Positions 8,049 through 21,561 of a DNA stretch of 64,000 bases are shown here, piece after piece. The stretch's first letter is position 1; every line of letters begins with the position of its first letter. The notes beneath the pieces are model-generated. The model was not told the origin of the DNA. It searched no databases and worked only from the letters and a program-made list of their open reading frames with translations. The position numbers were made by a program, and so were the translations under genes. This stretch comes from Catenulispora pinistramenti (GTDB lineage: Bacteria; Actinomycetota; Actinomycetes; Streptomycetales; Catenulisporaceae), in the NCBI RefSeq assembly GCF_018274385.1, contig NZ_JAAFYZ010000003.1:1-64000 (forward strand), read 5' to 3'.

Positions 8049-9938
8049 TCACGCCCGCGCGATCTGCGCGCGGGCGTAGGCCGCCCGGACCGCCGTCGTC
8101 AGCGTCTCGATGTCATAGGCGCCATGGTGCCGCCGGCCGTTGATGAAGAACGACGGCGTCCCCGACACCCCGCTCAGATCGGCCGAATCCGCGTCCTCGG
8201 CGATCCGCGCGGCGAAGACGTGCTGGCGCAGTTCGGAGGCGAACCGCTCGACGTCCAGCCCGAGCTCGCTCGCGTACCGCCGCAGGTCGACCGGCGTCAG
8301 CGCGTCCTGACGGTCCAGCAGCAGGTCGTGCATCGGCCAGAAAGCACCCTGCTTCGCCGCCGCCTCGGACGCCTCGGCGGCGATCTCGGCCCGGGGGTGC
8401 ACGTCGCTGAGCGGCAGGTGCCGCCACACGTAGCGCACGTCCCCGAACGCCGCCAACAGCTCCCGCACCACCGGCTCGGCCTGCCCGCAGTAGGGGCACT
8501 CGAAGTCCCCGTACTCGACGATCGTCACCAGCGAGTCGGCCGGCCCCCGGATATGGTCGCGGTGCTTGTCGACCGGGACCGCCAGGTCGATGATCGACTC
8601 CGAGGTCCCCAGCAGTGCCCGCTGCCGCAGCGGCTTGGGCAGCAGGGCCGTGATCCGGAAGACCGCCCATGCCCCCGCCGAGGCCACCAGCGCCGCGGAG
8701 AGCACCCCGAGCTTGGCCTGCTCCAGCTGCACGCCGTGGAAGGCGAGCGTCGCGATCAGCAGCGACACCGTGAACCCGATCCCGGCGGCGGCCCCGGCCC
8801 CGGCGGCCCCGGCCCAGCCGACCGGCAGCCGCACCCGGCCCCGGCTCACCCGGGTGAGCACCCACGCCGCGCCGACCGTCCCGACCGGCTTGCCGACCAC
8901 GTAGGCGATCAGGATGCCCAGGGTGATCCGGGAGGTGTAGGCGTGGGCCAGGAACCCCGCGTCGATCGGGATGCCGACGTTGGCCAGCGCGAACAGCGGA
9001 ACGATCGCGTAGCTGGTCCACGGGTGGTACCAGCTCTGCAGTCGCTCGTTCGGCGAGATCGCCGCCGACACCCCCAGCCGCGCGCTCTGCGCCAGCTCGG
9101 CCGTCGGCTGCTCGCGGAAGCTCCGGAACAGCTCGCTGGCCTGCTGCAGATCGTCGCGCGCGGCCGGATAGGCGAAGGTCAGCAGCCCGATCGCCAGGCC
9201 GACCGACACCGGGTCCACCCCGGACTTGAAGAACGCGACCCAGGCCGCGAGCCCGATCACGAAGTACGGCGGGCCGTATCGCACCCCGCGCTGCCGCAGC
9301 ACCAGGACCACGCCGAGCAGTGCCAGCCCGACCAGCAGCGCCGCCACCCGGATGTGCTCGCTGTAGAAGAACGCGATGACCAGGATGCCGACCAGGTCGT
9401 CGACGACTGACACGGTCAGCAGGTACGTCCGCACCCGCAGCGGCAGCCCCCGGCCGACCAGCGCGAGCACGCCGAGCGCGAACGCGGTGTCGGTGCTCAT
9501 CGCCGCGCCCCAGCCGTGCGAGGAGGGGTGCCCGGCGTTGATCGCCAGGAAGATCGCCACCGGCAGTACCGCCCCGGCGACCCCGGCCGCCAGCGGCAGC
9601 GCGAGCTGGCTGCGCCGGCGCAGCTCGCCCATGTCGAACTCGCGGCGCGCCTCGAGCCCCACGACCAGGAAGAAGAAGGTCATCAGGCCGGAGTTGACCC
9701 AGCCGCGCAGATCCTGGGCCACGCCGGTGTGTCCGATCGTGACCGAGGCCTGCGTCGCCCACACCGAGTCGTAGTTCGCCGTGGAGACGTTCGCCCAGAT
9801 CAGTGCCGCGACCGTGGCCGCCAGGAGCAGCGCGGAGCTGCCGGTCTCGGTCCGCAGGAACTTCCGGCGCGGCGTGTCGCCGTCGGCCGCCGTCGTCGTT
9901 CCGGCCTCGGCGGAAGCCGGTGATCGGGAGAGGGCCAT
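8049..9938 (-). CDS. nhaA: NhaA-type Na+/H+ antiporter fused to a DsbA-like thioredoxin domain
   Basis: The protein has 629 residues. About 1-430 is an NhaA antiporter with roughly 12 membrane segments. The conserved MSTDTAFALGVLALVG segment and the ion-binding Asp pair (SVVDDLVGI) are visible. About 445-629 is a DsbA/thioredoxin fold with a CPYC active site (EYGDFECPYCGQAEPVVREL) and the cis-Pro region GTPSFFINGRRHHG. NhaA exchanges Na+ or Li+ for protons at the cytoplasmic membrane. NhaA-DsbA fusions occur in several actinobacteria, and the role of the appended oxidoreductase is not established. It is convergent with the small secreted protein gene. Confidence 0.92.
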   Translation of the reverse strand: MALSRSPASAEAGTTTAADGDTPRRKFLRTETGSSALLLAATVAALIWANVSTANYDSVWATQASVTIGHTGVAQDLRGWVNSGLMTFFFLVVGLEARREFDMGELRRRSQLALPLAAGVAGAVLPVAIFLAINAGHPSSHGWGAAMSTDTAFALGVLALVGRGLPLRVRTYLLTVSVVDDLVGILVIAFFYSEHIRVAALLVGLALLGVVLVLRQRGVRYGPPYFVIGLAAWVAFFKSGVDPVSVGLAIGLLTFAYPAARDDLQQASELFRSFREQPTAELAQSARLGVSAAISPNERLQSWYHPWTSYAIVPLFALANVGIPIDAGFLAHAYTSRITLGILIAYVVGKPVGTVGAAWVLTRVSRGRVRLPVGWAGAAGAGAAAGIGFTVSLLIATLAFHGVQLEQAKLGVLSAALVASAGAWAVFRITALLPKPLRQRALLGTSESIIDLAVPVDKHRDHIRGPADSLVTIVEYGDFECPYCGQAEPVVRELLAAFGDVRYVWRHLPLSDVHPRAEIAAEASEAAAKQGAFWPMHDLLLDRQDALTPVDLRRYASELGLDVERFASELRQHVFAARIAEDADSADLSGVSGTPSFFINGRRHHGAYDIETLTTAVRAAYARAQIARA

Positions 9939-12555: not shown

Positions 12556-14916
12556 TCAGCTCACGTTCAGACCGGTGTCGTCGACGACGAACGAGGTCTG
12601 CAGCGAGGCGTCCTCGGTCCCGGTGAACTTCAGGGTGACGGTCTGGCCGATGTAGCTGGCCAGGCTGAAGGAGTGCTGGCTGTAGCCGCTGTTGTGGTTG
12701 AGGTTGCTGTAGGTGGCCAGGGTGCCCAGCACGGTGCCGGAGGCGTTCAGGACCTGGACGTTCAGCTTGTCGTAGGCCGTGGTGGTGGTGGTCTCGTCGG
12801 TGTCGATGTGCAGCCAGAAGGAGAAGTTGGCCGTCTTGCAGGTGGCCGGGATGGTGACCTTCTGCGCGAGGGTGTCGGTGTGGGTGGTGCCGTAGCCGTC
12901 GAGCCAGGCGTCGTAGCTGCCGGAGTGGGCGGGCTCGTCGGTGGTGTCGCTGTTGATGACGCCGGAGGACGCGGTCCACGGGGACGCGCTGCCGGTCTCG
13001 AAGCCGGGGTTGCCCAGCAGCTGCGCCGCGGTGCAGCCGCCGCCGGAGGCGTTGACCGTCCAGGTGAAGGAGGTCGTGCCGGAGGCGGTGCCCGAGGACG
13101 CGGTCACGGTGACGTTCGACGTGCCGGCCGCGCTCGGGGTGCCGGTGATGGCGCCGGAGCTGCTGATCGACAGGCCGGCCGGCAGACCGGAGGCGCTGTA
13201 GGTCAGCGCCTTGCCCGCGGAGTCGGTCGCCGCGATCTGAAGCTTCGTGATCGCAGTGCCCTGAGTGGAGGTCTGGTTGCCGGGGTTGGTGACCGAGACC
13301 GTCTCAGTGCCGCCCTGCGCGTTGACCGTCCAGGTGAACGAGGTCGAGCCGGAGGCGGTGCCCGAGGACGCGGTCACCGTGACGGTGGACGAGCCGGTGC
13401 CGGTCGGGGTGCCGGTGATGGCGCCGGAGCTGCTGATCGACAGGCCGGCCGGGAGTCCGGTGGCCGAGTAGGTCAGCGACTTGCCCGCCGAGTCCGTACC
13501 CGAGATCTGCAGGGTGCTGATCGCAGTGCCCTGCGTCGAGGTCTGGCTGCCGGGGTTGGTCACCGAGACGGTCTCGGTCCCGCTGCCGCCGGTCTGCAGG
13601 CCGGCGACGCCGTTGGGGGTGCCGATGCCGGTCGGGCCGTCGTAGCCGGTTCCGGCGGTGCACAGGTAGGACGGGGTGCAGGTGCCGTCGTTGCCGGAGG
13701 TGACGTCGTAGAAGTTGCTGGTGTGCTGGTAGATGTCCTGCGCCGGGGTGGCGCCGGCGTTACCGGCGAGGGCGAACATGGCGGCGACCATGGGGGAGGA
13801 GGCCGACGTGCCGCCGACTTCGTTCCATCCGGTGTTGCCGTTGGAGGTGTCGTAGACGGCGACACCGGTGGCCGGGTCGGCGTCCGCGGCGACGTCGTTG
13901 TCGATCCGGTTGGAGCAGCCGGAGGGCAGGTTCAGTGCGGTCTGCCAGGCAGGCTGCGCCTCGTAGGACGAGCAACCGGAACCGGTGCCCTCAGAACCCT
14001 GCGTGGTGTTCCACACCGACTCGGTCCAGCCGCGCGAGTTGGACGACGTGGTCAGGTTGGTGCCGCCGACCGAGACGACGTTCGGCGAAGTGGCCGGGTA
14101 CGACGCGCCGTAGTCGGAGTCACCGGCCGAGACCGTGGTCACGATGCCGGAGGCGTGGGTGAAGTACTGGCTGTCCTGCGAGCTCTCGGTCGAGGACTCG
14201 CTGCCGCCCCACGAGTTGGATATGTAACCGGCCAGGCTCGCCGCGGTGTTCTGCGCGATGTAGAGGCCGTCGCTGGAGTCGTCAGCCGCCTCGACCAGCA
14301 CGATGCTGCACAGCGGGCAGATCGCGGAGGCCATGTCCAGGTCCAGGGACTCCTCAAGAGTCCAGTCGTCGCCGGCCGGCGGGGCCGAGGGCAACGGCGA
14401 GGTCTGGCCGGTCTGGTTGACCTTCTTGAAGTTCCCCGCGGGCAGGCCCGCTGCGGACCGGTACGCGGCCAGGTCGGACGCGGCGTTCGCGTCATCGTAG
14501 GCGTCGACCAGGGCGATGGTCTTGCCGGCCCCGTTCGCGGCCGAGGTGGAGGTGAGGTTGTAGGCCGACTGCAACTGCGAGGGCCCGTACCCGACACCGG
14601 AGGGGATGGCGTTGGGGGAGATCGCCGTGTTGGGGTGGACTCCGTCCCGCTTCAGCGCGAAACAGGACTGGTGCCCGACGACGATCACCGCCGAACAGGC
14701 ATGGCTCGAATCCTGATTCGCCGGGGTGACATCGGGCTGGGAGGCGTGGGCGGAGCCGGCGGCCTCGGCGGCGATCAGGTTCGCGGATGCCGACGGGGTC
14801 GCGGACGGCGCCGGGGAGGCGGTGGCCCCCGAGGCGACGGCGATGGTCAGCGCGCTGCCCAGGGCGGCGGCTGTCGCCACGCGCGCGGTCGCGCGCAGGC
14901 GTGAACTGAGATTCAC
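12556..14916 (-). CDS. Secreted sedolisin-type (S53) serine-carboxyl peptidase with two Ig-like repeats
   Basis: The 786-residue protein starts at GTG 14916 ([20 protein letters not shown]), which gives a clean signal peptide; the upstream in-frame sequence is Arg/Pro-rich and looks non-coding. The S53 catalytic elements are present: Glu/Asp in [13 protein letters not shown], the oxyanion Asp in [10 protein letters not shown] and Ser in [13 protein letters not shown]. Unlike many kumamolisins it lacks a long Pro_kuma propeptide. Two putative Ig (He_PIG) domains of 90 residues follow, then a C-terminal beta domain ([14 protein letters not shown] to [10 protein letters not shown]) common in secreted bacterial S53 enzymes. 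Likely an extracellular endopeptidase. Confidence 0.9.
13041..13580 (-). repeat. 270-bp in-gene tandem duplication coding two He_PIG domains
   Basis: Two copies with period 270 bp (for example gccggtgatggcgccggagc at 13141 and again at 13411) encode near-identical Ig-like domains. The DNA similarity is high enough to suggest recent duplication or gene conversion. Confidence 0.8.
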
Positions 14917-15110
14917 TGGGGTGGCTTCCCTCTCGGTGTGGGGAGCGGTCGGACGCGGTGTCCGAACGCCTTTCGGCAGGAGACGACGCGACCGATGCCT
15001 TGGGGTGACGCGCGAGCCATCTGCGGTGCTGGGCTTGCCAGGTGGGTTCCGCCGCAGGTGGCCGGTGCGTCTGGGACCGGCCGTGCCGTTGTGCGCCGTG
15101 CTGATTGTGG

Positions 15111-15139
15111 AAGCTAGCGCCACGCGGAGTAACGGTCAA
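15111..15139 (-). promoter_or_regulatory. Candidate sigma-70-type promoter of the S53 protease gene
   Basis: On the minus strand TTGACC (15139-15134) and TAGCTT (15116-15111) are separated by exactly 17 bp, giving a leader of about 190 nt before GTG 14916. Position 14917-15309 otherwise holds no recognisable gene. Confidence 0.5.
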
Positions 15140-15309
15140 CGGTTTCTTATGTAAGGGCGTGGATGACGACCGACTGCTATCCGTAGTAGCCGATGGTCTA
15201 CACCATCACCGTTGGCCTGGTATTTCGCGGCGGGCTATAAGATCCGGTACCGCGCCGACGAGCTTGATTCGTAGTTCCGTTCGAGCCTTCTGCTATGCCG
15301 CGTAGTAAC

Positions 15310-16680
15310 TCAGGGCATAGATATGCCGGGATCCCGGCTTTGGACCAGGGTGATGCGACTGGTGTCGAAAACGCCGCGTGCGGTGGTTTTCGGCCCGATC
15401 TCGACGGCCGTGAACAACGCCCGCAGCACCGCGGCCCGGCGCTCCTCGGGCAACCGCCGCCAAGCCGCCGGCGCCTTCGGCCCGGTGACCACCCCGTCCA
15501 GCGCGTGCACGTCCCGTAGGTCGATCTGTCCGTGTCCGGCCCGGAACCCGTCGCGCCCGGCCGGCGGTCCGGCCGGTCCGCGCCGGACGCTGACCGGCCG
15601 GTCCGGGTCGATCATCGAGTCGTTCCCGTCGAGCAGCAGCCCCACGGCCGCCTCACAGACGAAGTCCTCCAACGAGGCCGCGGCGATGTGCATGGTGCAG
15701 GTCCTGGGCAGCGGACTGTTCAACGAGGCGCAGGCGTACATCCGGTATTCGCCGACGATCGAGCCGACCATGTGCACATGGCACCGTCCGCACATGACGA
15801 GGCCGGTCAGCAGGTACCGTGCTCGCTGCCGCCGCCCGGCGCTGTTCGCGGCGGCCCGCCCCGCGCGTTCCTTCTGTGCCCTGCGCCAATCCCCGATGTC
15901 GACGCACGCCTCCCACCTGCCCGGACGGAGCCCGCCTTCCTCGCGGTCGACGCTGCCCCGGAACACCCGCAGCCCGCAGTACCGTGGCGCCAGCAGGATG
16001 CGGTCGACGCCGGTGGTGGTCCAGGTGCTGCCGGTGGAGGTCGGGACGCCGCGGGCGTTCAGGTCCCAGGCGATGGCGCGCAGGCTCTCGCCGTTGAGAT
16101 AGCGCGCGTAGACCTCCCGGACCACGCGGGATTCCTCGGGAATCAGGGCCCGCATTCCCAGCTCGTACCCGTACGCGCGGCGCCCGCCGCCGTGCGGACG
16201 TCCGGTCGCGGCGGCTACTTCGTGCGCGGCCCGAGCCGCTTCGGACAGCGCCGAGGCGGTCTGGCTGGACTGGCGCGCCCGGTCCAGCACCGCCGACCGC
16301 ACCCCGGGATCGCTCAGGTCCACGTCGTCGCCGAAGCCGTGCAGTGCCACCCGGCGTTCCTCGGCCAAAAGCAACAGTTCCACCGCGTCGGCCGGGCGAT
16401 GCCGGATCAGCGTCGAGGGCCGGAACACCAGAGCCGCCCTCGCCCGGCCGGCGCGGATCGCGGCGAGCAGGTTCGTCCAGCCGGTCCGATCCGTCTCCGG
16501 CTGCCAGACCGCACGCTGCCGGTCCGCGAACACCGATTCCGGGCGCACGGTGATCCACAACGAGGCGGCCAGGGCCCGTCCCTGCCGTTCCTGGGCGTCG
16601 ACCGGCAGTTGGTCGGCGTCGGTGCGGTGCGGGACGCAGCAGTACAGCGCCCCGCGTTCGCCCCGCCTCGGCCCGGCCAT
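15310..16680 (-). CDS. Large serine recombinase-like protein with degenerate catalytic site
   Basis: The 456-residue protein has the layout of a large serine recombinase: a resolvase-like domain (about 1-140), the recombinase domain (GGGRRAYGYELGMRAL, YLNGESLRAIAWDLNARGVP, WTTTGVDRILLAPRYCG, about 150-270) and a zinc ribbon (LTGLVMCGRCHVHM, then YACASLNSPLPRTC). At the N-terminus, where active enzymes have Y-x-R-V-S, this protein reads ALYCCVPHRTDADQ. Both the catalytic Ser and the preceding Arg are replaced, so strand cleavage is doubtful. DNA binding through the C-terminal domains may persist. It starts 1 nt after the stop of the iron ABC ATPase gene (TGACATG), so it is probably cotranscribed with the iron operon. 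No att site or prophage lies nearby. Confidence 0.8.
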   Translation of the reverse strand: MAGPRRGERGALYCCVPHRTDADQLPVDAQERQGRALAASLWITVRPESVFADRQRAVWQPETDRTGWTNLLAAIRAGRARAALVFRPSTLIRHRPADAVELLLLAEERRVALHGFGDDVDLSDPGVRSAVLDRARQSSQTASALSEAARAAHEVAAATGRPHGGGRRAYGYELGMRALIPEESRVVREVYARYLNGESLRAIAWDLNARGVPTSTGSTWTTTGVDRILLAPRYCGLRVFRGSVDREEGGLRPGRWEACVDIGDWRRAQKERAGRAAANSAGRRQRARYLLTGLVMCGRCHVHMVGSIVGEYRMYACASLNSPLPRTCTMHIAAASLEDFVCEAAVGLLLDGNDSMIDPDRPVSVRRGPAGPPAGRDGFRAGHGQIDLRDVHALDGVVTGPKAPAAWRRLPEERRAAVLRALFTAVEIGPKTTARGVFDTSRITLVQSRDPGISMP

Positions 16681-16681
16681 G

Positions 16682-17806
16682 TCAGGACACGGGGTTGCCG
16701 ACGGCCATCGTGGGCGGCCGGACTATGGCGTCCGCGGAATCGGCCGACGTGCCGATCGGGTAGGCGGATCCCTGGACGCCGACGTGAACCTGCTGCCCGA
16801 CCGGCGGTGGCGCCGTGCTGACATAGGCGATCAGCGGTGGGCCCGCGACCGCGCTGTCTTCGAGCGTGAGCTCGACGCGCCAGTCGGTGCCACGGAAACG
16901 GGAATCGAGGATCCGGGCCGGGGTGGTGTCCATGCCTTCCGCCGCGAGCCGGAGCTGGCCCGGGCGCAGCATGACGGTTTGCGATCCGTGCGGGGTCTCC
17001 GCCTCATCCGCGAGCTCATCCGGTAGCCCATCCGCCAGCGGAACCGCGCCGAGCGCCGTGTCGGCCCGTCCGTCGCGCAGCACGGCCGGAAGCAGGTTCG
17101 CCTCGCCGAGCGTCCGCGCGATCTGCGCGTCGGCGGGCCGGTGGTAGAGCGCGTGGCCGCTGTCGGCCTGGACGATCCGGCCGTCGCGCATCACCGCAAT
17201 GAGGTCGGCGAACGACAGGGCCTCGTCCACGTCGTGCGTCACCAGGATCGCGGTGGCACCGGCCGCGCGCAGGGTCGCGGCGACCTGGGCCCGCACCTCG
17301 GTCCGCAGCGCGGCGTCCAACGCCGCGAACGGCTCGTCCAGCAACAACAACTCCGGACGCGGGGCGAGCGCCCGGGCCAGCGCCACGCGCTGCTGCTGGC
17401 CCCCGGACAGCTGGTGCGGATGCCGGTCTCCGAGCCCTGACAGCCCGACGAGATCCAGCAGTTCGGCCACCCGCTCACGCCGGTCTGCCCGCGGCAGCCC
17501 GAACCCGATGTTGGCGGCGGCCGACAGATGCGGGAACAGCGCGCCGTCCTGCGGGACGTAGCCGATGTGCCGGCGCTCGGCCGCGACGTGCGTCCGGTCG
17601 TCGTTCAGGACCCGGCTGCCGACCGCGACGGTTCCGGTGCCCGACCGGTGGAATCCGGCGATCACCCGCAGCAGCGTGCTCTTGCCGCAGCCGGAAGGAC
17701 CGAGGATGCAGGCCAGCGTCCCGTCCTGGACCGTCAGGTCGAGTCCGTCCAGGACCGGGGCGCCGCCGTGGCCGGCCCGCAGCCCGGAGATCGTGAGTCC
17801 GCTCAT
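16682..17806 (-). CDS. fbpC: Ferric iron ABC transporter ATP-binding protein
   Basis: The 374-residue protein has Walker A GPSGCGKSTLL, Q-loop, signature LSGGQQQRVALARAL, Walker B LLLLDEPFAALD and switch His (VTHDVDEAL). A C-terminal TOBE-like regulatory region lies at about 250-374. It energises uptake through the permease encoded immediately upstream; the 1-nt junction TGACATG implies coupling. It is the last transport gene of the operon, and the recombinase-like gene follows with the same spacing. Confidence 0.9.
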   Translation of the reverse strand: MSGLTISGLRAGHGGAPVLDGLDLTVQDGTLACILGPSGCGKSTLLRVIAGFHRSGTGTVAVGSRVLNDDRTHVAAERRHIGYVPQDGALFPHLSAAANIGFGLPRADRRERVAELLDLVGLSGLGDRHPHQLSGGQQQRVALARALAPRPELLLLDEPFAALDAALRTEVRAQVAATLRAAGATAILVTHDVDEALSFADLIAVMRDGRIVQADSGHALYHRPADAQIARTLGEANLLPAVLRDGRADTALGAVPLADGLPDELADEAETPHGSQTVMLRPGQLRLAAEGMDTTPARILDSRFRGTDWRVELTLEDSAVAGPPLIAYVSTAPPPVGQQVHVGVQGSAYPIGTSADSADAIVRPPTMAVGNPVS

Positions 17807-17807
17807 G

Positions 17808-19397
17808 TCAGGCTTCTTCCTTCGACAGACGGGCAGGGCCGAGCGTGCGGCGGGTCAGCAGGACGACGGCCGGGACCGACAGCGCGGTCATCATCGCCGC
17901 GTACGGGGCGGCGGCGCCGTAGGCCAGGCCGGTGGTGTAGGACCAGAACCGGGTGGCCAGGGTGTCGGTCCCGGTCGGGTGCAACAGCAGCGTGGCGGTC
18001 AACTCGGTGCTGGCGGTCAGCGCCACCATCGCGAACGAGGCGGCCAGCCCGGGCGCGATCAGCGGCAGCGTGACCCGGCCGAGCACGACCAGGCGCCGGC
18101 GGCCCAGCGAGCGCGCGACGTCCTCGACGCCGTGCGGGACCTGGGCCAGCGAGGCGCGCACCGCGGTCAGCGCGAGCGGGAAGAACAACACCACGTAGCC
18201 CGCGACCAGCATCGGCGGCTGCTGATACCACGGTGTGGCATAGCGGATCGCGAAGAACACCACGGCCAGCGCGACCGCGATGCCCGGCAGGGCCCGGGTC
18301 AGGTAGGCCAGGCGCACGATTCCCACGGACAGGTGTCCCGGATGCCGCCAGGCCAGCAGCGCGACCGGCACCGCGGCCGCGGTCGCGATCGCCGCGCTGA
18401 CCAAGGCGTAGCCGGCGGTGGTCGCGGTCGCCGACCAGATCGAGGCCGAGGGCAGGGTGCTGGAGTTGCCCTTGGCCAGCCAGTATCCGAGCGCGTAGAC
18501 CGGGACGCCGAGCGTGGTCCCGACCAGCGCTGCCAGTCCCACGACCGCCGGAGCCGTCCAGCGGCCCAACCGCAGCGGATCGGCGGGCCGCGTGGCCGCG
18601 CCTTCCCGGACCACCCGGCCGCGGCGCCGTCCGGCTCCGGCCTCCGCGCCGATCACCAGGACCGCCAGCACGATCAGCACCAGGGCCAGCACGGATGCCG
18701 AGACGGTGTCGAAGCTGGTCTCGAACTGGGTGTAGATCGCGGTGGCGAAGGTGGTGTAGCGCACCATCGCGAATGCCCCGTATTCGCCGAGCAAATACAG
18801 CGAGACCAGAAGTGCCCCGCCGGCCAGTGCGGGCCGGGTCTGCGGCAGCGTCACCCGCCACAGGATGTGCCAGCGGCCGTGACCGAGGCTGCGGGCCACC
18901 TCCTCGGTCGCGGCGTCGCCGCGTCGCAGGGTCGCGGCGGCCGGCAGGAAGACCAGCGGGTACAACGAAGTCGTCATCACCAGCACCGCGCCCCAGAACC
19001 CCTGCACCGAGGGGAACAGCGAGACCCAGCAATAGCCGTGCACGAACTCCGGGACCGCCAGCGGCATCGCCAGCAGCACGGTGAACACCCGGCGCCCGGG
19101 TATGTCCGTGCGCTGCGTCAGGAAGGCCGCGCAGAACCCGATGACCAGCGTCGCGGCCGTCACGGTGACCGTGAGCTCCACTGTGTGCCACAAAAGCGTG
19201 GTGACGAGCGGACGGCCGAGCAGCTGCCGGACCGAGGCCCAGCCGGACTGCCCGGCCTGCATCGCCACGAACACCAGCGGGCAGCACACGACCACGGCGA
19301 CCGCGGCGGCCACCAGCGGCAGCGCGAACGGGGCGCCGGAAGCCCGGCGACGCAACGCCGCCGGGCCGATCGCCTTCAAGAACGGCTGGTCGCTCAC
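17808..19397 (-). CDS. fbpB: Ferric iron ABC transporter permease (fused two-domain type)
   Basis: The 529-residue protein has about 12 membrane segments in two halves, each with a binding-protein-dependent permease EAA-like loop (EEVARSLGHGRWHILWRVTLP and VEDVARSLGRRRLVVLGRVT). This matches FbpB/SfuB-type permeases in which two domains are fused. It overlaps the substrate-binding gene by 4 nt (GTGA) and moves Fe3+ across the cytoplasmic membrane with FbpC. Confidence 0.9.
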   Translation of the reverse strand: MSDQPFLKAIGPAALRRRASGAPFALPLVAAAVAVVVCCPLVFVAMQAGQSGWASVRQLLGRPLVTTLLWHTVELTVTVTAATLVIGFCAAFLTQRTDIPGRRVFTVLLAMPLAVPEFVHGYCWVSLFPSVQGFWGAVLVMTTSLYPLVFLPAAATLRRGDAATEEVARSLGHGRWHILWRVTLPQTRPALAGGALLVSLYLLGEYGAFAMVRYTTFATAIYTQFETSFDTVSASVLALVLIVLAVLVIGAEAGAGRRRGRVVREGAATRPADPLRLGRWTAPAVVGLAALVGTTLGVPVYALGYWLAKGNSSTLPSASIWSATATTAGYALVSAAIATAAAVPVALLAWRHPGHLSVGIVRLAYLTRALPGIAVALAVVFFAIRYATPWYQQPPMLVAGYVVLFFPLALTAVRASLAQVPHGVEDVARSLGRRRLVVLGRVTLPLIAPGLAASFAMVALTASTELTATLLLHPTGTDTLATRFWSYTTGLAYGAAAPYAAMMTALSVPAVVLLTRRTLGPARLSKEEA

Positions 19398-20497
19398 GAA
19401 AGCAGGCCGACGCTCTGCAACAGGCTCAGCGCCTGCTTGCCGTCGCCCAGATCGGTCGCGGGCACCACCGGCCCGGCCGCCGACAGCGGCTTGGCCAGCT
19501 TGGTGGCGGCCACCCCGGCCAGCAGCGGGTACTCATAGCTCTGCGAAGTGGCGATGATCTGCTGCGCGGGCTGGGCCACCAGGTAGTTCAGGAACGCCTG
19601 CGCCGCCGGCTGGTGCTTGCTGGAGCCCAGGATCCCGGCCCCCGAGACGTCCACCATCGACCCGGGGTCCCCGGCGGCGAAGTAGGACAGCTGGCTGTGC
19701 ACGGCACCCGCGCCGACCTCATCGCGCATCCGGTACCAGTAGTAGTGGTCGACGACACCCCCGGCGACCTCGCCCTTGTTGATCGCGGCGATCAGGTCCT
19801 CGTTCGAGTCGTACACCTTGCCGTTCGCCTTCAGCCCCCGCAGCCAGGTCTTGGTCGCGTCGGCGCCGACCGACTGGATCATGCGGGTGACGATCGGGGT
19901 GAAGTCGGTCTCGCTGGGCGCGATGCCGAGCTTGCCCTTCCAGGCCGCACCGGCCAGATCCTTCACCGATGTCGGCAGCTGCGAGGCCGGCACCGCCGCG
20001 GTGTCGTAGGCGAAGACCGCGCTGCGGGCCGAGACTCCGATCCAGTCCCCGGCCGCCGCGCTGTCCGCGGCCGGGACGGCGGCCAGCGTGTCCGCGTCCA
20101 CCTTGGCCAGCAAGCCCTTCTCCTCCAGCGTGGTCAGCGTCGGCGGGTTCTCGGAGACGAACACGTCCGCGGGGGAGGCCTTGCCCTCAGTGAGGATCTG
20201 GTTCGCCAGTTCCGCCTCGTCCCCGGACCGCACGTTCACCTTCACACCGGTCTTGGCTTCGAAGCCCTTCACCAGTGCCTGCATGGTCTGCTCGTGCTGG
20301 CCGCTGTAGATGGTGATCGACTGCCCGCTCAGAGCGGTCCCGGACGCGGCCGCCACCGGCACGGTCGACGGCTTGGAGGTGCCGCTGCCGCAGGCCGCCA
20401 GCACCACTGAAGTCACGGCCGCCCCGGCGGCCAATACCGCTGACTTCCGACCGGATCGCTGGGCAGACGTGGGCACCGAGACCTCCATGGGGAACAC
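19394..20497 (-). CDS. fbpA: Ferric iron-binding lipoprotein of ABC transporter
   Basis: The 367-residue protein has a lipobox (SVVLAACGSG, Cys about residue 36) marking a membrane-anchored solute-binding protein. FbpA family features are TIYSGQHEQTMQALVKGFEAK at the mature N-terminus, ADVFVSENPPTLTTLEEKGLL, and the Tyr pair region VVDHYYWYRMRD that ligates iron in FbpA relatives. Starts: GTG 20497 or ATG 20488. An IdeR/DmdR-type iron box lies 54 bp upstream, consistent with repression by iron-loaded DtxR-family protein. Confidence 0.9.
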   Translation of the reverse strand: MFPMEVSVPTSAQRSGRKSAVLAAGAAVTSVVLAACGSGTSKPSTVPVAAASGTALSGQSITIYSGQHEQTMQALVKGFEAKTGVKVNVRSGDEAELANQILTEGKASPADVFVSENPPTLTTLEEKGLLAKVDADTLAAVPAADSAAAGDWIGVSARSAVFAYDTAAVPASQLPTSVKDLAGAAWKGKLGIAPSETDFTPIVTRMIQSVGADATKTWLRGLKANGKVYDSNEDLIAAINKGEVAGGVVDHYYWYRMRDEVGAGAVHSQLSYFAAGDPGSMVDVSGAGILGSSKHQPAAQAFLNYLVAQPAQQIIATSQSYEYPLLAGVAATKLAKPLSAAGPVVPATDLGDGKQALSLLQSVGLLS

Positions 20498-20550: not shown

Positions 20551-20566
20551 CTTAGGCTTGCCTAAG
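20551..20566. promoter_or_regulatory. Iron box (DtxR/IdeR/DmdR-type operator)
   Basis: CTTAGGCTTGCCTAAG is a 7+2+7 palindrome matching the core of the known actinobacterial iron box (TTAGG-CCTAA spacing). It sits directly upstream of the fbpABC operon. Confidence 0.8.
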
Positions 20567-20727
20567 CAAAGAAGAGGGGGGTCTCCAGGGCTTCGCGGAC
20601 GCCGGGGAGCGCTCGGCTGGCGCCAGTGGGGGGCTTGGCGACAGTGGGGACTTGACGACACCGCGTCGCGGTGGTCAGATCCGGGAGGTTGGTCGTCCGG
20701 ACTCGGCATGGTGTGGGGGATGGGGCT

Positions 20728-21561
20728 GTGGCTAAGCAGGACGCTCAGGACGAGAAGTCCGCACGGGCCCGGGTGGTGGCTGAACGCGAAGCTCAAAAGC
20801 GCAAGAGCATGCAGCGCCGCCGGGTGTCCGTCCTCGCCACGGTCGTGGTGGTGATCGGCGTCTCGGTCGGCGTCGGCATCGCGGTGAGTACGGCCTCTGC
20901 CAAACCGAAGGCCTACACCCCGCCGGCCGACGGCTCTGTGGTCGCCGACAAGTACGCGAACCCGGCGAACAAGGCGACGGCGCTGGCTTACGGTCCGGCG
21001 ACGGCCCCGCACACCCTGACCATCTTCGAGGACTTCCGGTGCCCCTACTGCAAGGCGCTGGAAACCGGGTCGGCGTCCGTCTACAAGGCTTATGTGGCCA
21101 AGGGCACGCTGCGGGTGCTGTTCCACCCGGTGACGCTGATCGACACCAACGACAACGGCAGCGGCTCGTTGCAGGCCGGCAACGCGGCCGTGTGCGCGGC
21201 CACGGCCGGCAAGTTCATCGAGTACCACGACGTGCTGTTCGCCAACCAACCGGACGAGACCACCGACGGCTACAGCGCCACCGCTACGCTGATCGCCTTG
21301 GCCAAACAAGTTCCGGGGCTGGACACACCGGCCTTCGAGTCCTGCGTGACGGCCGGTACCTACAAGGGACTGGTCCAGCAGAACTGGTCGGACTTCAACG
21401 CGTTGTCATTGAAGGGCACCCCGACGCTGATGCTCGACGGCAAGGCCCTGACACTGCCGGACAACCTGTGGAAGGCCTCGAAGGACGGCTCGTCGCTGGC
21501 CGGTTCAGATCCGGCGGTGCTCCGGCAGGTGCTCCAGGCCGCGGGGCTTCCGGCGCAGTAG
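20728..21561 (+). CDS. Membrane-anchored DsbA-family thiol oxidoreductase
   Basis: The 277-residue protein has a charged cytoplasmic N-terminus (KQDAQDEKSARARVV), one membrane helix (about 34-55), then a thioredoxin fold facing outward. The active site is CPYC (FEDFRCPYCKALETG) and the cis-Pro motif is GTPTLMLDGK. GTG 20728 is selected by its GGGGGATGGGG ribosome site. This organisation matches actinobacterial MdbA/DsbA-like disulfide oxidoreductases that fold secreted proteins. It is convergent with the VOC gene. Confidence 0.88.
   Translation: MAKQDAQDEKSARARVVAEREAQKRKSMQRRRVSVLATVVVVIGVSVGVGIAVSTASAKPKAYTPPADGSVVADKYANPANKATALAYGPATAPHTLTIFEDFRCPYCKALETGSASVYKAYVAKGTLRVLFHPVTLIDTNDNGSGSLQAGNAAVCAATAGKFIEYHDVLFANQPDETTDGYSATATLIALAKQVPGLDTPAFESCVTAGTYKGLVQQNWSDFNALSLKGTPTLMLDGKALTLPDNLWKASKDGSSLAGSDPAVLRQVLQAAGLPAQ

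Follow-up and report, generated by a model that had tools for sequence, protein, structure and literature searches.

A lineage of large serine recombinases without key catalytic residues in Catenulispora and Streptacidiphilus, probably working as gene switches

Large serine recombinases (LSRs), or serine integrases, such as PhiC31, Bxb1 and the Listeria LI integrase are the closest known counterparts of the protein reported here, with which they share domain order, the PF07508 domain, a four-Cys zinc ribbon and the fold. In LSRs the coiled-coil is needed for synapsis, and the N-terminal domain of the resolvase fold forms dimers. The family described below differs from PhiC31, Bxb1 and LI by the loss of the nucleophilic Ser, Arg8, Asp67 and Arg68, and three of its groups (A, B and C) also lack the long coiled-coil.

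The recruited serine recombinases described in the available part of PMC8987985 are active and act by rearranging DNA. A dead LSR has been engineered: dInt7, which carries Ser10Ala, remains able to bridge attB and attP in vivo, in E. coli (PMC8053113). It was tried on attB/attP and is not a natural regulator; Streptacidiphilus homologues of our protein have the same substitution naturally. The nearest concept is that of the TldR proteins, TnpB-derived RNA-guided transcription factors (PMC13418256), in which a former mobile-element enzyme without catalysis has likewise become a DNA-binding regulator, although fold and RNA guidance set them apart. BlaI/MecI repressors (PF03965) likewise have an operator that is a short palindrome and sits at a divergent promoter, but the protein is unrelated. 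Among open-licence full texts on inactive, domesticated or regulatory serine recombinases, no report of this family was found.

The window is a stretch of 64,000 nucleotides of Catenulispora pinistramenti (contig NZ_JAAFYZ010000003.1, positions 1 to 64,000; genome G000 in our survey of ten Catenulispora genomes). Its relevant features are:

12556..15123 (-), secreted S53 (sedolisin-like) peptidase with He_PIG domains
15174..15193 (-), weaker palindrome-like copy with two mismatches, upstream of the S53 gene
15289..15308 (+), degenerate TCTNCTA-N7-TAGTAG with one mismatch, directly past the 3' end of the gene for the recombinase-like protein, with the S53 gene beyond
15310..16680 (-), LSR homologue of group A, catalytically dead, 456 residues, with YCCVP where intact proteins have YCR-I/V-S
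16682..17806 (-), fbpC, ATPase of a ferric-iron ABC transporter, its TGA 1 nt from the ATG of the recombinase-like gene
17808..19397 (-), fbpB, permease
19394..20497 (-), fbpA, ferric-iron-binding protein, best solved structure 8k7n (E=6e-73)
20552..20565 (+), iron-box-like palindrome TTAGGCTTGCCTAA, in front of fbpA

Active site, phylogeny and fold

The recombinase-like protein begins with MAGPRRGERGALYCCVPHRT. Its Recombinase domain is clear in Pfam (PF07508, E=1.2e-18, 67.6 bits versus a cut-off of 21.1), the zinc ribbon PF13408 lies exactly at its cut-off (25.3 bits), and Resolvase PF00239 stays under it (18.8 versus 23.3). The recombinase domain and zinc ribbon, which had been described as intact, are so indeed: the ribbon cysteines C297, C300, C317 and C328 are invariant in all 20 proteins of groups A, B and C. 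A sequence search against solved structures gave nothing for this protein.

The earlier note had read YCCVP as loss of the nucleophile and of the flanking Arg. Alignment with intact relatives confirmed this and extended it. In gamma-delta resolvase numbering, Ser10 is replaced by Pro and Arg8 by Cys, no Ser aligns with the nucleophile position, and the Asp-Arg pair is gone as well (Asp67 to Ser, Arg68 to Thr). Arg45 and Arg71 are retained in all five group A proteins.

Homologues in the genus fall into group A (G000, G001, G005, G008 and G009), A2 (G002 and G004), group B (G000, G001, G003, G005, G007, G008 and G009) and group C, found in nine of the ten genomes (as fragments in G002), the exception being G006, which is 77% complete. 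The full copies, present in 9/10 genomes, are open frames of about 450 residues. A pattern search revealed further homologues of 35–38% identity in six Streptacidiphilus species; by profile search, 6 of 14 genomes of that genus, to which L105 belongs, have one.

R8, S10, D67 and R68 are gone from all A (five), B (seven) and C (eight) proteins. Arg8 is Cys in each of these 20 rows, Asp67 is Ser, Ala, Leu or Gly, and Arg68 is Thr, Met, Ser or Ala; two adjacent cysteines at the former active site are invariant (20/20). Ser10 has become Pro in 21/21 rows of A, A2, B and C and Ala in all six of Streptacidiphilus, where R68 is Glu throughout (6/6). All six residues compared are intact in the 21 closest relatives (three of kind D and 18 related proteins from other genomes of the order), a check that covered those matches of the order-wide search for which a locus was retrieved. 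In the outgroup, R8, S10, R45, R68 and R71 are kept in all eight proteins and D67 in seven.

A 56-protein tree places all 27 dead proteins on a single branch (support 100/99.9), so that catalysis was most simply lost once. The neighbours of this branch are the intact-motif Catenulispora proteins L058 and L060. They belong to a sister subfamily (L058, L060, L061 and L118–L135; from Catenulispora, a sister genus and the same order) which is nearest in the tree, with about 33–40% identity, and differs by its intact catalytic residues (21/21) and by lacking TCTNCTA-N7-TAGTAG at L058–L061. In L058 and L060 a gene of the sigma-70 type (PF08281/PF04542 in L059) precedes the LSR gene. The stretch between the two, CTCAAAGGTTGTTTGCCCACCATG, is identical in both loci while the sigma genes differ; it has the look of an att site located within a gene for a sigma factor.

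Pairwise dN/dS ratios are 0.25–0.33 in group A, 0.10–0.20 in B, 0.09–0.22 in C and 0.28–0.60 in Streptacidiphilus (simple Nei-Gojobori counts, with high dS for some pairs). Each domain of the A, B and C proteins, the dead N-terminal one included, has a ratio far under 1. By this sequence measure the three Catenulispora paralogue groups are under purifying selection and not decaying.

The structure model used here is the second one, built from 41 sequences (mean pLDDT 84.5, pTM 0.69); an earlier 20-sequence model was of low quality (pLDDT 61.6). The model matches the DNA-bound PhiC31, Bxb1 and Listeria integrases along its full length. Its best match is 9y66_C (Z 14.6, 386 residues), where the high rmsd of 10.1 probably reflects domain arrangement. 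A resolvase-fold N-terminal domain is present (Z 12.9 to 3bvp_A over 133 residues, rmsd 4.1). Judged from alignment and model, the long coiled-coil that interrupts the zinc domain of LSRs is absent from A, B and C: a Pro/Gly-rich stretch occupies the place where intact relatives carry a longer charged, helix-type stretch, and residues 352–399 are modelled without any helix longer than six residues. The Streptacidiphilus members retain a longer stretch at this position.

A palindrome at the group B and C genes

Alignment of upstream regions showed that B and C genes share ATCT-N-CTA, seven bases and TAGTAG; the rest appears unrelated. The exact pattern TCTNCTA-N7-TAGTAG occurs at 16 distinct places in nine of the ten genomes (18 rows, two of them the same palindrome on the other strand). 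All 16 lie directly 5' of a B (seven) or C (nine) gene, and no other gene in the ten Catenulispora genomes has an exact site upstream. The pattern read backwards, as a control, occurs at 3 to 8 places per genome. Base composition predicts about 0.1 occurrences per genome, but since the pattern was derived from these very sites only its absence elsewhere is informative.

The arms of the palindrome are nearly constant while the spacers vary. Its end is 7 nt from the start codon of the B genes (8 in L040) and 7 nt ahead of the first GTG of the C genes (ATG in L054); seven C proteins were taken from an ATG 16 nt after the palindrome. The right arm continues as TAGATT, TAGCTT or TAGCGT, each of which fits TANNNT. 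In Mycobacterium tuberculosis TANNNT is the usual –10 element, centred 7–12 bp upstream of the transcription start, as stated in the available part of PMC3898074. The palindrome and the promoter of a leaderless transcript therefore probably overlap. The B and C genes each have a conserved dyad site at their own predicted promoter, one whose exact form is absent elsewhere.

An inherited att site is the less likely origin of the palindrome, as no common palindrome is visible upstream of the active relatives. A site of this type was not seen at the A2 loci either. The group A site lies 3' of the gene and is clear in the window and in G008 but decayed to its core in G001, G005 and G009. With one mismatch allowed, the window genome has twelve more places, one being the group A site and eleven lying away from family genes.

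The Streptacidiphilus homologues have a different element. CTCAGAAGAAACTCAGAGGAA is found upstream of all six (five exact, the sixth one mismatch off), and it is exact only at dead homologues. Two more places match with two mismatches, one beside the same homologue locus and one away from a homologue. In the eight Streptacidiphilus genomes without a dead homologue, the element is absent at up to two mismatches.

Iron operon and S53 peptidase as neighbours

Among solved structures FbpA finds ferric-binding proteins, with E-values as low as 6e-73, so the label 'iron uptake' is right. The recombinase-like gene had been reported to follow the ATPase gene by 1 nt with a junction seen before in the operon, and this is the case: TGACATG stands at both fbpB/fbpC and fbpC/recombinase-like gene, and the latter junction reads TGACATG in four of five group A loci and TGATATG in the fifth. 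TTAGGN4CCTAA was found in all six A-type operon promoters examined (the window, L037, L038, L039, L071 and L073), and imperfect look-alikes lie upstream of fbpA in L055, L072 and L105. The full 19-base IdeR/DtxR consensus gave no match at up to three mismatches. In a control, the box (up to one mismatch) turned up once or more somewhere in the window in 11 of 100 shuffles, so that the argument for the box comes from its position and its presence in 6/6 operons. Being co-directional, joined by 1 nt and predicted to share the iron-box promoter, the gene appears to be a member of the FbpABC operon.

G008 (C. pinisilvae) has lost fbpABC and kept the iron box and the recombinase-like gene. The box and the fbpA start have been joined, with the frame preserved, to the tail of fbpC; the resulting ORF of 40 residues runs into the recombinase-like gene with TGACATG. 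This suggests that keeping expression from the iron-box promoter was worthwhile, although a single deletion proves nothing alone.

The survey of synteny, called for by the earlier note, found the proposed link of homologues to iron operons: such an operon adjoins four of five A, both A2 and one of six Streptacidiphilus loci. It adjoins none of the 15 full B (seven) and C (eight) loci, and two of eight fbp operons (G003 and G007) are without the recombinase-like gene; iron is thus not a theme of the whole family. The link is real but partial. The proposed iron regulation finds support in group A only, from the conserved box and from G008.

In G007 (L071, 6700–7330), the S53 promoter region directly follows fbpC and the recombinase-like gene is cleanly absent; the flanks are near-identical to those of G009, which has the gene. 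In L105 (Streptacidiphilus fuscans) fbpABC, a dead gene and an S53 gene stand together as in the window, with fbpABC divergent; the fbp proteins are 67–76% identical to those of the window and the recombinase-like protein about 35%. Two further window ORFs were noted by eye: an NhaA-type antiporter (8049–9938) whose C-terminus, with the motif FECPYCGQAEPV, resembles a domain of the DsbA/thioredoxin type, and elsewhere (20671–21561) an ORF that is itself DsbA-like. PADLOC gave no match to a defence system.

A commoner neighbour than iron is the peptidase, which we assign to the S53 (sedolisin-like) family; its catalytic part has no Pfam match, and its gene probably starts at the GTG at 14916. 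An S53 gene adjoins all five A, all seven B, all six Streptacidiphilus loci and one of eight C loci, oriented in tandem, convergently or divergently, and is absent at 7/8 C, 2/2 A2 and four D loci. Whole-protein searches gave 10–34 S53-like matches per genome, and the catalytic domain alone 14 in G003 and six in G391. At these numbers an S53 gene should seldom lie next to a family gene by chance, but loci that are related do not count as independent cases. In the S53 tree the neighbours of the dead family sit on different branches and not in one clade, so simple co-inheritance of one pair is insufficient. This tree, built without rows shorter than 300 residues and without L001, L073, L150 and L151 (duplicates or fragments), has long branches and open forks. 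The copies beside A and B genes (window 12556–15123, L038–L046) are not split into two clades, and the window copy pairs with the B-linked copy of G008 (100/98). This pairing suggests gene conversion or copying between the A and B loci.

Possible functions of the family

Most members stand beside a DNA site found almost nowhere else, and the dead LSRs are thus probably gene switches. We favour, with moderate confidence, a domesticated LSR-derived family that does not cut DNA and whose members, as palindrome-binding dimers, would control transcription at their own genes. Recombinase domain, zinc ribbon and resolvase-fold N-terminal domain are retained, so the DNA-binding half would have been kept. 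Dimers would recognise the palindrome beside the gene that encodes them and act on transcription there, autorepression being the most likely mode in view of the –10-like element that the palindrome overlaps in B and C. A dead LSR can still bridge att sites, and A, B and C lack the coiled-coil as well, which fits plain operator binding better than bridging. The group A member would have been captured into the iron operon, which would make the supply of the protein depend on iron; from its place in that operon, the amount of protein probably tracks iron starvation. It is likely to act on its own locus and on the neighbouring S53 promoter; the only plausible site lies between the two genes. Against the favoured reading stand the degenerate group A site 3' of the gene, with arms partly lost in three of five species, the lack of such a site at A2 loci and of a common palindrome at the active relatives, the BlaI-like gene divergent from all seven B genes, and the two-mismatch copy of the Streptacidiphilus element away from a homologue. 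Loss of catalysis and of the coiled-coil, the tree, selection, sites, operon and iron box come from sequence, and it is from these that binding, dimerisation, repression, the iron response and targets are inferred.

The main alternative is that the palindrome belongs to a divergent BlaI-type repressor, with the recombinase-like proteins as its targets and not its readers. A PF03965-type gene is indeed divergent from the B gene in all seven B loci, and CTACTA/TAGTAG resembles BlaI operators. But in the stretches searched such genes occur at B loci only: the eight C loci carry the same palindrome and group A a related site, with no BlaI homologue there, the 64-kb window included, nor at the Streptacidiphilus loci. 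Further, G002 and G004 (81% and 90% complete) have a C gene with its site and no B gene was found in them, and the exact site precedes no other gene in the ten genomes. We consider a BlaI operator doubtful. Slightly better placed, if still on the unlikely side, is a local regulator of secreted S53 genes, independent of iron. It is compatible with the favoured self-binding switch and names its target. It would account for S53 neighbours at every A, B and Streptacidiphilus locus in varied layouts, spread over the S53 tree despite few copies (14 in G003, six in G391); against it, seven of eight C and both A2 loci have no such neighbour, G007 keeps the S53 promoter sequence though the recombinase-like gene is missing, and neighbours may be inherited together.

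Two other readings fare worse. A factor that silences mobile elements, by occupying att sites or forming heterodimers with active LSRs in a dominant-negative manner, is improbable. The N-terminal domain, which forms dimers in this fold, is retained, and an intact sister LSR is co-resident in three Catenulispora genomes (G000, G001 and G008), but dead groups also occur where the sister was not found, the private palindrome is missing from the sister loci, and identity to the sister LSR is just about 35–40%, which makes use of the same sites unlikely. Least probable is a decaying integrase left by a mobile element: its catalytic residues are gone and G007 has no gene between fbpC and S53, but the full copies are open throughout, dN/dS stays low in every domain, the C loci keep conserved gene neighbours, and the upstream sites are unique and conserved. 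A pseudogene was ruled out by dN/dS and the open frames. The earlier suggestion of a domesticated DNA-binding protein is, as we infer from the single clade of dead proteins, from purifying selection on them and from the upstream sites peculiar to their genes, well supported.

A bolder version of the favoured self-binding switch is tentative. It would have an integrase-derived transcription-factor family shed catalysis once, lose the coiled-coil in Catenulispora, have the private palindrome at the leaderless-type promoters of B and C, and wire one paralogue to iron starvation for control of the neighbouring secreted S53 gene, while the Cys-Cys pair could sense metal or redox state.

That enzymes of mobile elements can become regulators is already known. 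A conserved natural LSR lineage free of catalysis, and apparently reading a unique palindrome, would show a further way for an integrase to become a transcription factor. Its members, dead by nature and with sites already predicted, would also be useful for testing the contribution of the catalytic domain and the coiled-coil to DNA binding.
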